Below are positions 1,235-5,766 of a DNA stretch of 32,094 nucleotides, piece after piece. The translations under genes were made by a program, and so were the position numbers. A model generated the notes under the pieces. The model was given only the letters and a program-made list of their open reading frames with translations. It ran no database searches and was not told the origin of the DNA. The DNA lies in assembly GCA_018713045.1 (NCBI GenBank), contig DVFV01000103.1, positions 1 through 32,094 on the forward strand, written 5' to 3'. Source of the stretch: Candidatus Coprosoma intestinipullorum. GTDB lineage: Bacteria; Bacillota_I; Bacilli_A; RF39; UBA660. Numbering within the stretch: the first letter of the stretch is position 1; each line of letters starts with the position of its first letter.

Positions 1235-1285
1235 TGTAGATTTTAACTCTAATTTACCCAGAAATTATCGAAATAAATTACCCAC
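1235..1285 (+). repeat. Left inverted terminal end of the transposon, two TTACCC motifs 24 bp apart
   Basis: TGTAGATTTTAACTCTAATTTACCCAGAAATTATCGAAATAAATTACCCAC. Confidence 0.85.
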
Positions 1286-1315
1286 TTAACTAGATAGAAG
1301 ATGGGAGTAGTTAAT

Positions 1316-1353
1316 AAAAAAGATGCATCAATTTGAAAAAGATGTATCTTTTT
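1316..1353 (+). terminator. Terminator-like hairpin just inside the left transposon end
   Basis: AAAAAGATGCATC ... GATGTATCTTTTT, 13-bp stem with one G-U type mismatch, followed by T-rich sequence. Confidence 0.6.
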
Positions 1354-1371
1354 AGTATTATATAAAACAAA

Positions 1372-1412
1372 AAAAAGAAACGCACAAAACGAAAAATAAA
1401 CCGTTTCTTTTT
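1372..1412 (+). terminator. Second terminator-like hairpin upstream of the first transposon gene
   Basis: AAAAAGAAACG ... CGTTTCTTTTT, 11-bp perfect stem ending in a T5 run. Confidence 0.6.
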
Positions 1413-1429
1413 ACCCAAAAGGTGATTAT

Positions 1430-1993
1430 ATGATAACATTAAAAACAAGAACTGTCAAATTGTTTGATGGAAGCGAAAGAATCAATGTAAGCTTAAAAGA
1501 AAAAACATATAATTTAAAAGAGGAAATAAAAGAATATGAACAAACGTTAAACTATGGATATTTAGAATGTCCAAAATGTCATACATCAAATTTGATTTAT
1601 TATGGCGGATATATAAGAAATATAGGTATAAATCAAGAGTTTTTGATTATAAGAATTCAAAGAGTACAATGTAAAGATTGTAAGAAAACTCATGCGATAA
1701 TACCGAATTTTATATATCCGTTTTTTCAGTATGAAAAAAGTTATATAAATTATATTTTATTGCTTATGAAAGTTCGTGAGAAAAAAGATAAAGAAATAGA
1801 AAATAGATTAAAACTTTCAAGACAACTATTGTCAAAATGGGAACAAAGATTTAAAAATCATGAAACAAGGCTAAAAACATTTTTAAAAACATCAAAAATA
1901 CCTGAAATAATAAAAGAAGTAATAACGGGTTTTTTTGAACATGGATATGAGTCTGAAAATGGGATAAGATACTTTCAAAAAATACCAACATAA
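1430..1993 (+). CDS. Transposon-encoded zinc-finger protein (DUF6431-like), likely accessory transposition protein
   Basis: Two CxxC pairs (CPKCHTSN...VQCKDCKKTHAIIP) followed by a helical/HTH-like C-terminus; RBS AAAGGTG; co-oriented with transposase and ATPase. Family name from recall. Confidence 0.6.
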   Translation: MITLKTRTVKLFDGSERINVSLKEKTYNLKEEIKEYEQTLNYGYLECPKCHTSNLIYYGGYIRNIGINQEFLIIRIQRVQCKDCKKTHAIIPNFIYPFFQYEKSYINYILLLMKVREKKDKEIENRLKLSRQLLSKWEQRFKNHETRLKTFLKTSKIPEIIKEVITGFFEHGYESENGIRYFQKIPT

Positions 1994-2055
1994 AAGTTTC
2001 ATTTACAACCTCAAGCAGCTTGGGTAGTATAGCTATCAGAGAGGAGGAAAAGTAG

Positions 2056-3318
2056 ATGAGACAAGGAACAAGTCGATTAGACTTATTTCGTTATGGAGTA
2101 ATTCTGCCACTTTTAACAGGTGAAGAAAGTAATGTACGAAAGTATTGTAAGGAAGAGTCGGCAAAACCACATTACTATAAAGGAAAAGAATACTATTTTA
2201 GTGAAGAGACAATAAGAAAATGGTATTACAAATATTTAAATGAAGGCTTTGATAAATTAAACAGGAAAAAAAGAAGCGATAAAGACATACCAAGAAAGAT
2301 GAATGAAGAGGCGATAAATTATATAATTGATCTTAAAAGTGGATATCCAAGAATAACAACAAAAAAGATATATGAAAGATTAAAGGAAGAGAGAGTGGTA
2401 GGAAAAGATATATCGATAAATAGTTTTTATAGGTATATGAAAACAAACAATTTAAGGACACAGGTAATAGCCAACAAAGAGAGAAGAAGATATGAAAAAG
2501 AATACCCGAATGATACATGGCAGGCAGACACTAGTTATGGTCCATATATAAAAGTAGATGGGAAGAAGTACCGGACATATTTAATACAGTTTATAGATGA
2601 TAATTCAAGATTAGTAGTAGGGTATGGATTTTATTTTCATGACAATGCGGTAAATGTTCAGAAAACATTTAAAAAAGCGATAGAGAAATATGGAATTCCC
2701 AAACAAATATATTTAGATAATGGTAAACCATATAGTAATGAACAACTAGAGATAATATGTGCGAGACTAGGAGTAAAACTAACGCATACACATGCATATG
2801 ATCCAGCATCCAAAGGAAAAGTTGAAAGATGTTTTAAGACGATAAAAGAAGGGTGGATGTATGCGAGAGATTGGAATAAATATGGAAGTATCGAAGAGTT
2901 AGAAGAGGATTATGGGAGGTATTTATATGACGAATATATCAATAAAAAACATAGTGAACTTGGTGATTCACCAAATAATGTATGGCATAAAGGGATTGAA
3001 AATACAGTATATAAACAAATAGAAAAAGAGAAATTAGAAGAATGCTTTATGAATACAGTAATAAGAGTAGTAACAAAAGATAGATTAGTAAGTATAAATA
3101 ATAAATATTATGAAGTGCCATATAAGTATGTAGGAAGTAAGATAGAACTTAGATATTATGTAACAAATGAAGAAGAGATATGGGTATATGAAAATAATGA
3201 AATGAAAGAAAAATGTGAACCGTTAAATAAGAAAGATAATAGTAAAGTGAAAAGAGAAAATAATATAGATTATTCAAAACTAGTTAACAATGAAGAGGAT
3301 GTGATAGAATGTTCCTAA
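2056..3318 (+). CDS. DDE (rve-fold) transposase with Mu-type C-terminal domain, TnsB/IS481-like
   Basis: N-terminal HTH; catalytic residues in WQADTSYGP ... IYLDNGKPYSN ... SKGKVERCF; RBS GAGGAGG. Confidence 0.9.
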   Translation: MRQGTSRLDLFRYGVILPLLTGEESNVRKYCKEESAKPHYYKGKEYYFSEETIRKWYYKYLNEGFDKLNRKKRSDKDIPRKMNEEAINYIIDLKSGYPRITTKKIYERLKEERVVGKDISINSFYRYMKTNNLRTQVIANKERRRYEKEYPNDTWQADTSYGPYIKVDGKKYRTYLIQFIDDNSRLVVGYGFYFHDNAVNVQKTFKKAIEKYGIPKQIYLDNGKPYSNEQLEIICARLGVKLTHTHAYDPASKGKVERCFKTIKEGWMYARDWNKYGSIEELEEDYGRYLYDEYINKKHSELGDSPNNVWHKGIENTVYKQIEKEKLEECFMNTVIRVVTKDRLVSINNKYYEVPYKYVGSKIELRYYVTNEEEIWVYENNEMKEKCEPLNKKDNSKVKRENNIDYSKLVNNEEDVIECS

Positions 3319-4109
3319 GTTATTATGGATTGGATAGAGATTTGTTTAAAAAAGAAATAAGCGAAAAAGAGGCATATAAGTCAAGTAATTATAAAGAGAT
3401 GATGTCCAGGTTAGAATATATAAAAGAAATAAAAGGCATAGGTTTATTTGTAGGAGAACATGGAATAGGAAAGACATATACTTTAAGATGTTTTAAAGAA
3501 AAGACAAACAAAGAGTTATATAAGATCATATACATATCAGTAGGTAATTTAACAGTATTTGAATTTTTGAATGTTATAAGTAAAGAATTAGGTTTAGATA
3601 CAGGAAACTGTTATCGGAATGAGATGGAAAGTAATATTCAAAGTGAAATAAAAAGAATGATAAGTAATCATAAAGATATAATTCTAATATTAGACAATGC
3701 CCAGAACTTAAGTAGAGAAATGATACAGTCATTAAAATTTTTATATGATTTCGATATGGATAGTGTAGATTACGTAAGTATAGTAATATGTGGCAGTAGT
3801 GAGATAGAAGATGAACTCAAGAAAAAGAGATATGAACATATAAAACAAAGAATTATATTAAAATATCATTTGAAACCATTAACAAGAGAAGAAACGAAGG
3901 AATATATAAAAACAAGGTTAAAGTTATCGGGACAAAATAAAATGATATATACAGAAGCGGCATTAAATGCATTATATAATATATCAAAAGGGAATATAAG
4001 AATCTTAAACAATATAATAAAAACAACCTTAATAGTAGGTTATCAACAAAAGAAAGAAATGATAGATGAAGAGATAGTAAGAATGGCAAAAGAAGAGGTA
4101 GAAATATAG
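3309..4109 (+). CDS. AAA+ ATPase, ExeA/TnsC-like transposition ATPase
   Basis: Walker A GEHGIGKTYT, Walker B IILILDNAQ, C-terminal GNIRILNNIIKTTL typical of ExeA/TnsC-like ATPases; start overlaps the transposase stop by 10 nt. Confidence 0.9.
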   Translation: MFLSYYGLDRDLFKKEISEKEAYKSSNYKEMMSRLEYIKEIKGIGLFVGEHGIGKTYTLRCFKEKTNKELYKIIYISVGNLTVFEFLNVISKELGLDTGNCYRNEMESNIQSEIKRMISNHKDIILILDNAQNLSREMIQSLKFLYDFDMDSVDYVSIVICGSSEIEDELKKKRYEHIKQRIILKYHLKPLTREETKEYIKTRLKLSGQNKMIYTEAALNALYNISKGNIRILNNIIKTTLIVGYQQKKEMIDEEIVRMAKEEVEI

Positions 4110-4126
4110 AAGGGAAAAGAGAGAAA

Positions 4127-4440
4127 ATGAATAAAGAAGAAATAGAAACAAATTATTCAGATAATTGTAAGTCTAGATATGGAAGTAGTAAGGTAGAATT
4201 CATAGTAGAATATTTAGACGATTATGTAAGGATGGAATATAGGATACTGATAAAAAAATAGATGAAGATGCCGAACTACAGTTAATTCATATACTTTATT
4301 ATTTAATGGATGAATATCCTGAGGGGTCTCTTGCCAAGGCAATTTATGATAATAAAATAGTATAGACTTTATTAAAACTTGAGAATAATACACCAAAAAT
4401 TGTTTTCAAGTTTTTTAATAGAAAAACAGAAATAAATTAA
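4127..4440 (+). pseudogene. Fourth transposon ORF, frame-interrupted at an A7 run and by an in-frame TAG; unknown function
   Basis: ATG 4127 gives MNKEEIETNYSDNCKSRYGSSKVEFIVEYLDDYVRMEYRILIKK* (stop 4259-4261). The -1 frame from A7 (4252-4258) continues IDEDAELQLIHILYYLMDEYPEGSLAKAIYDNKIV* (TAG 4363-4365) TLLKLENNTPKIVFKFFNRKTEIN* (TAA 4438-4440). Confidence 0.6.
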
Positions 4441-4467
4441 ATAAGATGTTTTGAGGTAGTTTATAGT

Positions 4468-4518
4468 GTGGGTAAAATAAATCGATAAAAAGCGGGTAAA
4501 TTAATTCGGCAATCTACA
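4468..4518 (-). repeat. Right inverted terminal end of the transposon, two GGGTAA motifs 24 bp apart
   Basis: GTGGGTAAAATAAATCGATAAAAAGCGGGTAAATTAATTCGGCAATCTACA; reverse complement aligns with the left end without gaps. Confidence 0.85.
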
Positions 4519-4615
4519 AATAGTTCTTGGTTTTTATTTAAAGTTGATGATGGAGGTCATTAATGTAATTAAGAAATAAAATTAAAAACGTATAAAATGC
4601 TTACCCCCTGAAAAG

Positions 4616-4645
4616 TTGATTTTTCTGGGGGGGGGGGTGTACAAT
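4616..4645 (+). promoter_or_regulatory. Putative promoter of the BspA-like gene with a G11 tract in the spacer
   Basis: TTGATT (4616-4621), 18-nt spacer containing G11 (4627-4637), TACAAT (4640-4645); RBS AGGTG and ATG at 4676 follow ~30 nt downstream. Confidence 0.55.
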
Positions 4646-4656
4646 GGAATTGTACA
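4638..4656. promoter_or_regulatory. Palindromic operator-like site overlapping the putative -10
   Basis: TGTACAAT-GGA-ATTGTACA, perfect 8-bp inverted repeat. Confidence 0.5.
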
Positions 4657-4675
4657 TAATAAAATAGGTGATTTT

Positions 4676-5766
4676 ATGCGTAGAATAAGAAGAAAAAGAG
4701 AGAAGCAAAAAAGAGAATAATAATTATAAGTGTATTTCTATTTTTAATAATAATGACAAGTGGTTATGCGGCGTTTTCTACCAATATAACACTTCATGCC
4801 AAAGGAAACATTAAAGAAAAGAGTAGAGTAATACAGTCATGGACTAGTGTGAGTCAAACGGATTTTCATTCAGATTATTATAAACAGAATATAGTAAGTG
4901 CGACATTTATGGATAACAACAATGTTCCGGATAGTGCGGTAGAAAGTTGGAATGTGTCAGAAGATAAAGAAAATGGAGAAGTAATGGCTTGGGTAGTACC
5001 TACCGCATCAGATAATTCAAAATACGATTTATATATCGGAGCCAAAGCTGGAGTTATTGCCAATGAAAATAGTAGAAATTTATTTGATAGTTTTTATAAT
5101 ATAAAATCAATAGTTTTTAACGATAATTTTGATACAAGCAATGCTACAACGATGCAGTCAATGTTTAGACGATGTGTCAATTTAATCGAACTTGATTTAT
5201 CAAGTTTTGATACCTCAAATGTTACTGATATGGTGGGAATGTTTCAAAGTGATGATGCAGATAATTCGATGAAGATACAAAGAATAATTCTTGGTGAAAA
5301 TTTTAATACAAGTAAAGTAACAAATATGAGAGCTATGTTTGGTAATTGTTATTCTTTAGTGGATGTTGATGTAAGTGGGTTTGATACAAGAAATGTTACA
5401 AATATGCGTGATATGTTTGCCAGTTGTTTTGCTTTGCCTAAAGTTGATGTAAGTAATTTTGATACATCTAAAGTGACTAATATGCAGGGAATGTTTTATA
5501 GGTGCCGGAGTTTAACCGAACTTGATATAAGTAATTTTGATACAAGTAATGTAACAAATATGCGAAGTATGTTTTCAGAGTTAAATTTTGATAAATTAGA
5601 TCTGTGTTCATTTGATACGCGTAAAGTTGTTGATATGAATGGAATTTTTTCTGGTACGAATCTTCAAAGTATTTATGTTGGACCAAATTGGACGACTGAG
5701 AATGCTGATATAACGCACATGTTTTATAATAGTAGTGTTTCTTCAGTTACAACTGGTCAGTGTTAA
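4676..5766 (+). pseudogene. BspA-like (DUF285) leucine-rich-repeat surface protein; start codon and signal peptide are out of frame at an A6 tract (main ORF 4753..5766)
   Basis: Repeated FDTSNVTNMRxMF / LxELDxSxFDTS units. ATG 4676 reads MRRIRRKREKQKRE*; the -1 frame gives KKRIIIISVFLFLIIMTSGYAAFSTNI, a hydrophobic signal segment in frame with the repeats. Could be phase-OFF rather than a dead gene. Confidence 0.75.

Follow-up and report, generated by a model that had tools for sequence, protein, structure and literature searches.

A poly-G promoter spacer ahead of a surface-protein gene in uncultured Bacilli: a candidate phase-variable promoter unit and its recurrence

Promoter-spacer switches built on poly-G tracts are known from a few pathogens, where they mostly govern one or a few genes each. 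Mycoplasmas carry related arrangements in families of loci, in which a repeat lies within or next to the promoter spacer of surface genes, as at Vlp (poly-A) and Vmm (TA repeat). In Neisseria meningitidis porA, promoter spacers containing 11, 10 or 9 Gs give graded expression, and altering a 7A tract near the start of the reading frame abolishes expression (PMC3639595). The nearest relatives in gene content of the locus described here are the contingency loci of mycoplasma DUF285/PARCEL surface lipoproteins and the spma genes (M. capricolum, M. agalactiae). The 5' flanks of the former contain homopolymeric or dinucleotide tracts (PMC2996958), and each of the latter, in an AT-rich genome, is preceded by a poly-G tract of up to 13, with control of transcription described as unknown (PMC2824730).

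Our locus lies in the window, the whole 32,094-nucleotide stretch of DNA that was analyzed, where a G tract separates a -35 and a -10 element ahead of a gene for a BspA-like surface protein. A repeat tract is thus placed between the two promoter elements, as in promoter-spacer phase variation. Like porA, the locus has some 11 Gs in the promoter spacer of a surface-protein gene, together with an early A tract that may act in the manner of the porA 7A tract. Unlike porA, a single gene of a Gram-negative pathogen for which changes in length and graded expression have been shown, the layout described here is found at many dispersed genes of uncultured Bacilli, where length change is predicted, and includes a palindrome common to the unit copies. 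The mycoplasma DUF285/PARCEL and spma genes resemble it in having tracts in their 5' flanks, whereas a poly-G -35/-10 unit with a conserved palindrome is not among the features described in the excerpts of those sources; Vlp and Vmm differ in repeat unit and clade. Our searches of the open-access literature returned no account of such promoter spacers from uncultured Bacilli.

Architecture and copies of the promoter unit

A first-pass annotation of the window had proposed a candidate phase-variable promoter with a homopolymer spacer, and the G11 run, both hexamers, the 18-nt spacer, the ribosome-binding site, the ATG and the palindrome are each located exactly where it placed them (Table 1). 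At least eight consecutive Gs occur at a single place in the window (four overlapping matches versus 0.14 expected). Under a first-order composition model, G/C runs of at least 11 are expected 0.001 times in the window and 0.05 times in the 1.51-Mb genome to which it belongs (G000). That genome has five contig positions with such runs, each inside a copy of the promoter unit, and its runs of at least 10 Gs likewise all fall within unit copies. By itself, the hexamer match of the window promoter (9/12 bases) is unremarkable, with 7 such hits versus 4.4 in shuffles. The window promoter is therefore convincing because of its comparison with other copies and not because of the weak lone match.

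Table 1. Features of the promoter unit and the start of the downstream gene, in window coordinates
Feature	Position	Strand	Remarks
Whole promoter unit (C5 / -35 / G tract / -10 + palindrome), 54 nt	4603-4656	+	11 places in the window's genome
Conserved 24-nt block CCCCCTGAAAAGTTGATTTTTCTG holding the -35	4604-4627	+	17/24 identity with a mobile-element terminus from sister species G028
-35 hexamer TTGATT	4616-4621	+	TTGA invariant across aligned 24-nt blocks
G11 tract in 18-nt spacer	4627-4637	+	Longest G run 4-12 and spacer 12-23 over 31 measured copies
Perfect 8-3-8 palindrome TGTACAAT-GGA-ATTGTACA (19 bp, TGTACAATGGAATTGTACA), overlapping the -10	4638-4656		Candidate operator
-10 hexamer TACAAT	4640-4645	+	TATAAT instead in copy C133
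Ribosome-binding site AGGTG	4666-4670	+	Present at position; retained by paralogues
Start ATG and 14-codon frame MRRIRRKREKQKRE, TAA at 4718-4720	4676-4720	+	Frameshifted 5' end of the surface gene
Remaining open frame, BspA-like / DUF285 surface protein, 360 codons	4684-5766	+	DUF285 PF03382, E 4e-54
A6 run (A7 in paralogue C94)	4707-4712	+	Likely -1 frameshift site

Searching the window's genome at the DNA level gave 17 matches, eleven of which carry all or most of the unit: CCCCC, the 24-nt block with TTGATT, the G tract, and TGTACAAT-NNN-ATTGTACA. Two of the contigs involved, C54 and C94, have a common end and probably represent one locus. Within the same genus, further copies were found in G023 (7), G028 (12) and G004 (1). 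Across the 31 copies measured in these four species, the -35 element is TTGATT or TTGACA in 29 and the -10 element is TACAAT or TATAAT in 30, and despite these conserved blocks both the G run and the spacer vary in length (Table 1), bearing in mind that the assemblies are metagenome-type, that long G runs can be miscounted in them and that several copies lie at contig ends. Beyond the sister species G023 and G028, a scan of a contig collection gave seven unrelated single matches that lacked the palindrome, and no unit copies were found in viral contigs. We considered contig ends at G tracts as a sign of mixed tract lengths and set this reading aside, since sequence common to the copies also breaks assemblies. 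At one contig of G028 (C30, L092), a G18 tract is preceded by a long A run close to the contig end, representing either an extreme expansion or an assembly error.

The palindrome is closely tied to the unit. With up to two mismatches, 10, 7 and 13 sites were found in G000, G023 and G028, respectively, all of them inside units, as compared with one, one and zero matches to the reversed control; G004 has one unit plus two other palindrome sites. Its arms pair in 95% of cells versus 14-60% after sliding, the three central bases vary freely, and one pair in the C133 copy is altered on both sides. The right arm lies outside the -10 element, so that its conservation is unexplained by the promoter. 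These patterns suggest that a dimeric regulator, most simply a repressor, likely reads the palindrome. In G000, G023 and G028, we identified no regulator gene and no free-standing palindrome site that would mark one. A palindrome copy at G000:C125:7388-7406 stands ahead of an intact gene without a -35 block or G tract and looks like the product of a deletion between two TGTA sequences.

Poly-G spacers across the genus and class

Runs of at least 10 Gs are present in 23 of the 44 genus genomes. They are preceded by TTGACAAAGTA in G034 and by TTGAAATTTTGAT in G030 and followed in both by TATAAT, and most readable genes of these two genomes open with the same type of anchor (GYAAFQTNL, GYAAFSTNL). 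To survey the layout more broadly, we used a general pattern (TTGA, 5-12 bases, G8, 0-10 bases, TANNAT) that permits spacers of 11-28 or more. This pattern occurs in 19 of the 44 genus genomes and in 46 of the 296 genomes from the class, representing 35 of 166 genera, while the reversed control pattern gave zero matches in every one of these genomes. Many, though not all, of the downstream genes in other genera encode signal peptides or lipoprotein signals. The C5 block and the palindrome are specific to the window's lineage, and the unit is one local version of this widespread arrangement.

Among the 95 sites listed from outside the genus, 73 have a spacer of 17-20, and the mode is 18; within the genus the mode is 19. 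The suggestion that losing one G would bring the window promoter to a preferred 17 nt is not supported by these distributions, in which poly-G promoter spacers peak at 18-19. At 18 nt, the window promoter may be in an active state as it stands; alternatively, the common lengths may represent a low state.

Length differences also come from G030, where near-identical paralogous promoters differ in tract length only. In the pairs L190/L197 and L197/L199, the 45 bases upstream and the 25 downstream match exactly and the tracts measure G12 and G13, and L191/L198 are identical over 70 flanking bases with tracts of G11 and G13. Such variation beside constant flanks is a difference between loci, seen for G030 paralogues and for unit copies. 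Together with the multi-copy unit, its conserved -35, -10 and palindrome around a variable G tract, and the orientation-specific recurrence over the class, these promoter pairs back the proposal of a candidate phase-variable promoter.

We think it likely that 4603-4656 belongs to a promoter unit present at many loci for exported surface proteins, that the poly-G spacer of this unit lengthens or shortens by replication slippage, and that the layout probably serves as a mutation-driven switch, either on/off or of strength. In the mechanism that we propose, slippage would alter the length of the G tract within the spacer, each such change would shift the distance between the -35 and -10 elements and thereby the strength of that one promoter, and the presence of many such loci would give cells of one clone different mixtures of surface proteins, with a possible biological benefit. 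In the window's lineage, the palindrome over the -10, as a probable repressor site, would in addition place all copies under joint control.

Some of the same observations could also be read as a static, constitutive spacer: a non-switching promoter copied together with its gene family, with tract lengths reflecting neutral drift. The long stretches common to the copies do indicate that the unit spread by duplication, and some tracts are interrupted (GGGAGGGGGG, GGGGGTGGGGG, GGGGGGGCGGG), which would stabilize them. However, pure runs of 10-16 Gs are intrinsically unstable, different lengths sit between identical flanks in G030, and the layout recurs independently in many genera with unrelated -35 blocks, which leaves a static spacer unlikely.

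If the G tracts vary within a strain, as the slippage model predicts, a large part of the uncultured Bacilli would vary its surface stochastically, gene by gene. Host and phage interactions would then be affected, as would the reading of metagenomes, given that the states would be invisible in consensus assemblies, which would also break at the tracts. Tentatively, we suggest that uncultured Bacilli lineages may widely carry unrecognized poly-G spacer promoters that stochastically set exported proteins and that, in the window's lineage, these could share a common operator and have had their -35 blocks repeatedly replaced at the G tract by mobile ends. Because of its orientation-specific recurrence and the zero matches in reversed controls, the layout offers a simple marker for such genes in other genomes.

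Mobile elements, and hairpin control or inversion as unlikely alternatives

Mobile DNA meets the promoter unit at several loci. A second block, CCCCCTCTTAAGTTGACATTATTG, takes the place of the first at G000:C23, G023:C12, G028:C5 and G028:C6, and in G028 this sequence terminates a mobile element whose terminal repeats span 63 bp. Contigs C23 and C31 of G028 flank one apparent insertion of the element, with a 10-bp duplication (GCTATGCGGC). The body of the element, including any transposase, is absent from the G028 assembly, and the body was not found in viral contigs. At G028:C5, the outward TTGACA of the element, 6 nt from its tip, combines with the native -10 at a spacer of 18 ahead of an intact gene, much like described insertion-element ends with an outward -35. 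This outward-facing end belongs to the sister species G028 and not to the window.

These junctions bear on the alternative, offered by the first-pass annotation, that an insertion-sequence end left behind the tract and its 24-nt block. In its favor, the identity between the block and the G028 element end (Table 1) is matched by just 48 of 20,000 shuffles, the element abuts G tracts at contigs C5, C7, C8, C46 and C53, at C13 one of its ends is fused to a DUF285 gene tail beside a G tract, and at C5 it supplies the -35 of an intact gene. The likeness is nevertheless weak beyond the common CCCCCT (11/18; 795 of 20,000 shuffles), and the window-type block is never attached to an element body or transposase; no transposase lies beside the solo block copies at G000 C23 and C20 or at G028:C6 and C13. 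An inverted repeat with target duplication was seen for the type-B end of G028 only, and not for the window-type block. Moreover, poly-G spacers accompany many other, unrelated -35 blocks that show no resemblance to the element end. The tract therefore needs no IS-end origin, and we regard such an origin as improbable; the window block itself may once have been such an end.

Two other elements lie in the window itself. Positions 1250-4521 hold a Tn7/Tn5090-like transposon (DUF6431, an integrase-type transposase and an AAA ATPase) whose terminal repeats, TAATTTACCC.../...GGGTAAATTA, differ from the 24-nt block and stop approximately 80 nt before the unit. Units or relics at G000:C133, G000:C20, G028:C13 and G028:C41 have similar transposon ends 20-80 nt away, as if this transposon favored these promoters. 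Upstream of it, positions 1-1171 contain the remnant of an interrupted IS66-type transposase. At three contig ends of G023 (C5:1, C9 and C15), a second repeated sequence, ACTTGACCCCCTCTTTACATTGTCTAAAAAAATGATAACATCCC, meets the unit at its C tract and is perhaps another mobile-element end.

The tract had also been predicted to form a hairpin, and CCCCC...GGGGG can indeed fold as single-stranded DNA (-9.1 kcal/mol, z -2.7), with a T-T mismatch inside. Control through such a DNA hairpin (CCCCCTGAAAA/TTTTCTGGGGG) in place of spacer length would fit the observations that the fold beats most shuffles and that C5 and most of the G-tract pairs are conserved. However, the inner pairs are often broken without compensation (7-22 in 10 of 13 and 12-17 in 8 of 13), the pairing score is no better than that of a one-column slide, the hairpin precedes the likely start and would be missing from the RNA, and C5 is absent in sister species with poly-G spacers, making this mode of control very unlikely. 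Equally far-fetched is DNA inversion or shuffling with the CCCCC/GGGGG inverted repeats or the palindrome as recombination sites that flip promoters, since the head-to-head -35 blocks with one common G tract at G028 contig ends and G000:C20 that would suggest it are explained by element insertion with target duplication, and the reciprocal back-to-back -10/-10 junction is absent in 44 of 44 genus genomes.

Downstream genes and the frameshifted window gene

Every readable gene downstream of a unit begins with a basic N-terminus and a hydrophobic anchor (e.g., MRKIRRKREKRKKKIIIISVFLFLIIMTSGYAAFSTN), and the genes fall into four related families, some members of which contain DUF285 or BspA-type leucine-rich repeats. 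These signal-anchor N-termini suggest that the unit controls products located at the surface.

The gene in the window departs from this pattern in its reading frame. The ribosome-binding site and ATG 4676 that the first-pass annotation had assigned to it are both present, but the ATG frame ends after 14 codons and the surface-protein frame runs in another phase, with the mechanical ORF beginning at 4753. The window reads CAAAAAAG where paralogue C94 reads CAAAAAAAG, one A fewer. With the frame shifted just past the start codon, the window copy is probably silent now, being OFF at the level of the reading frame irrespective of its promoter. The missing A may reflect a genuine mutation, an assembly error or an additional, slower switch comparable to the porA 7A tract.

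We also compared spacer length with the state of the downstream gene. Copies with spacers of 17-19 precede intact genes in 14 of 15 cases, the window being the exception, while those with other spacers precede intact genes in 4 of 10 and broken frames in 6 of 10 (Fisher p = 0.007), a comparison that is supportive only, as the grouping was devised after seeing the data and the copies are related. By eye, three paralogues without the unit (C33, C59:3907 and C98) show promoter-like hexamers separated by 17 nt and lack a G tract.

The single strain-like pair, G000:C21 and G004:C72, with 99.2% identity across 5.3 kb, has tracts of equal length and differing composition. This near-identity between two species bins reflects either binning contamination or recent transfer. 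The surface gene on the stretch reads CAG in G004 at a codon where G000 has the stop TAG.
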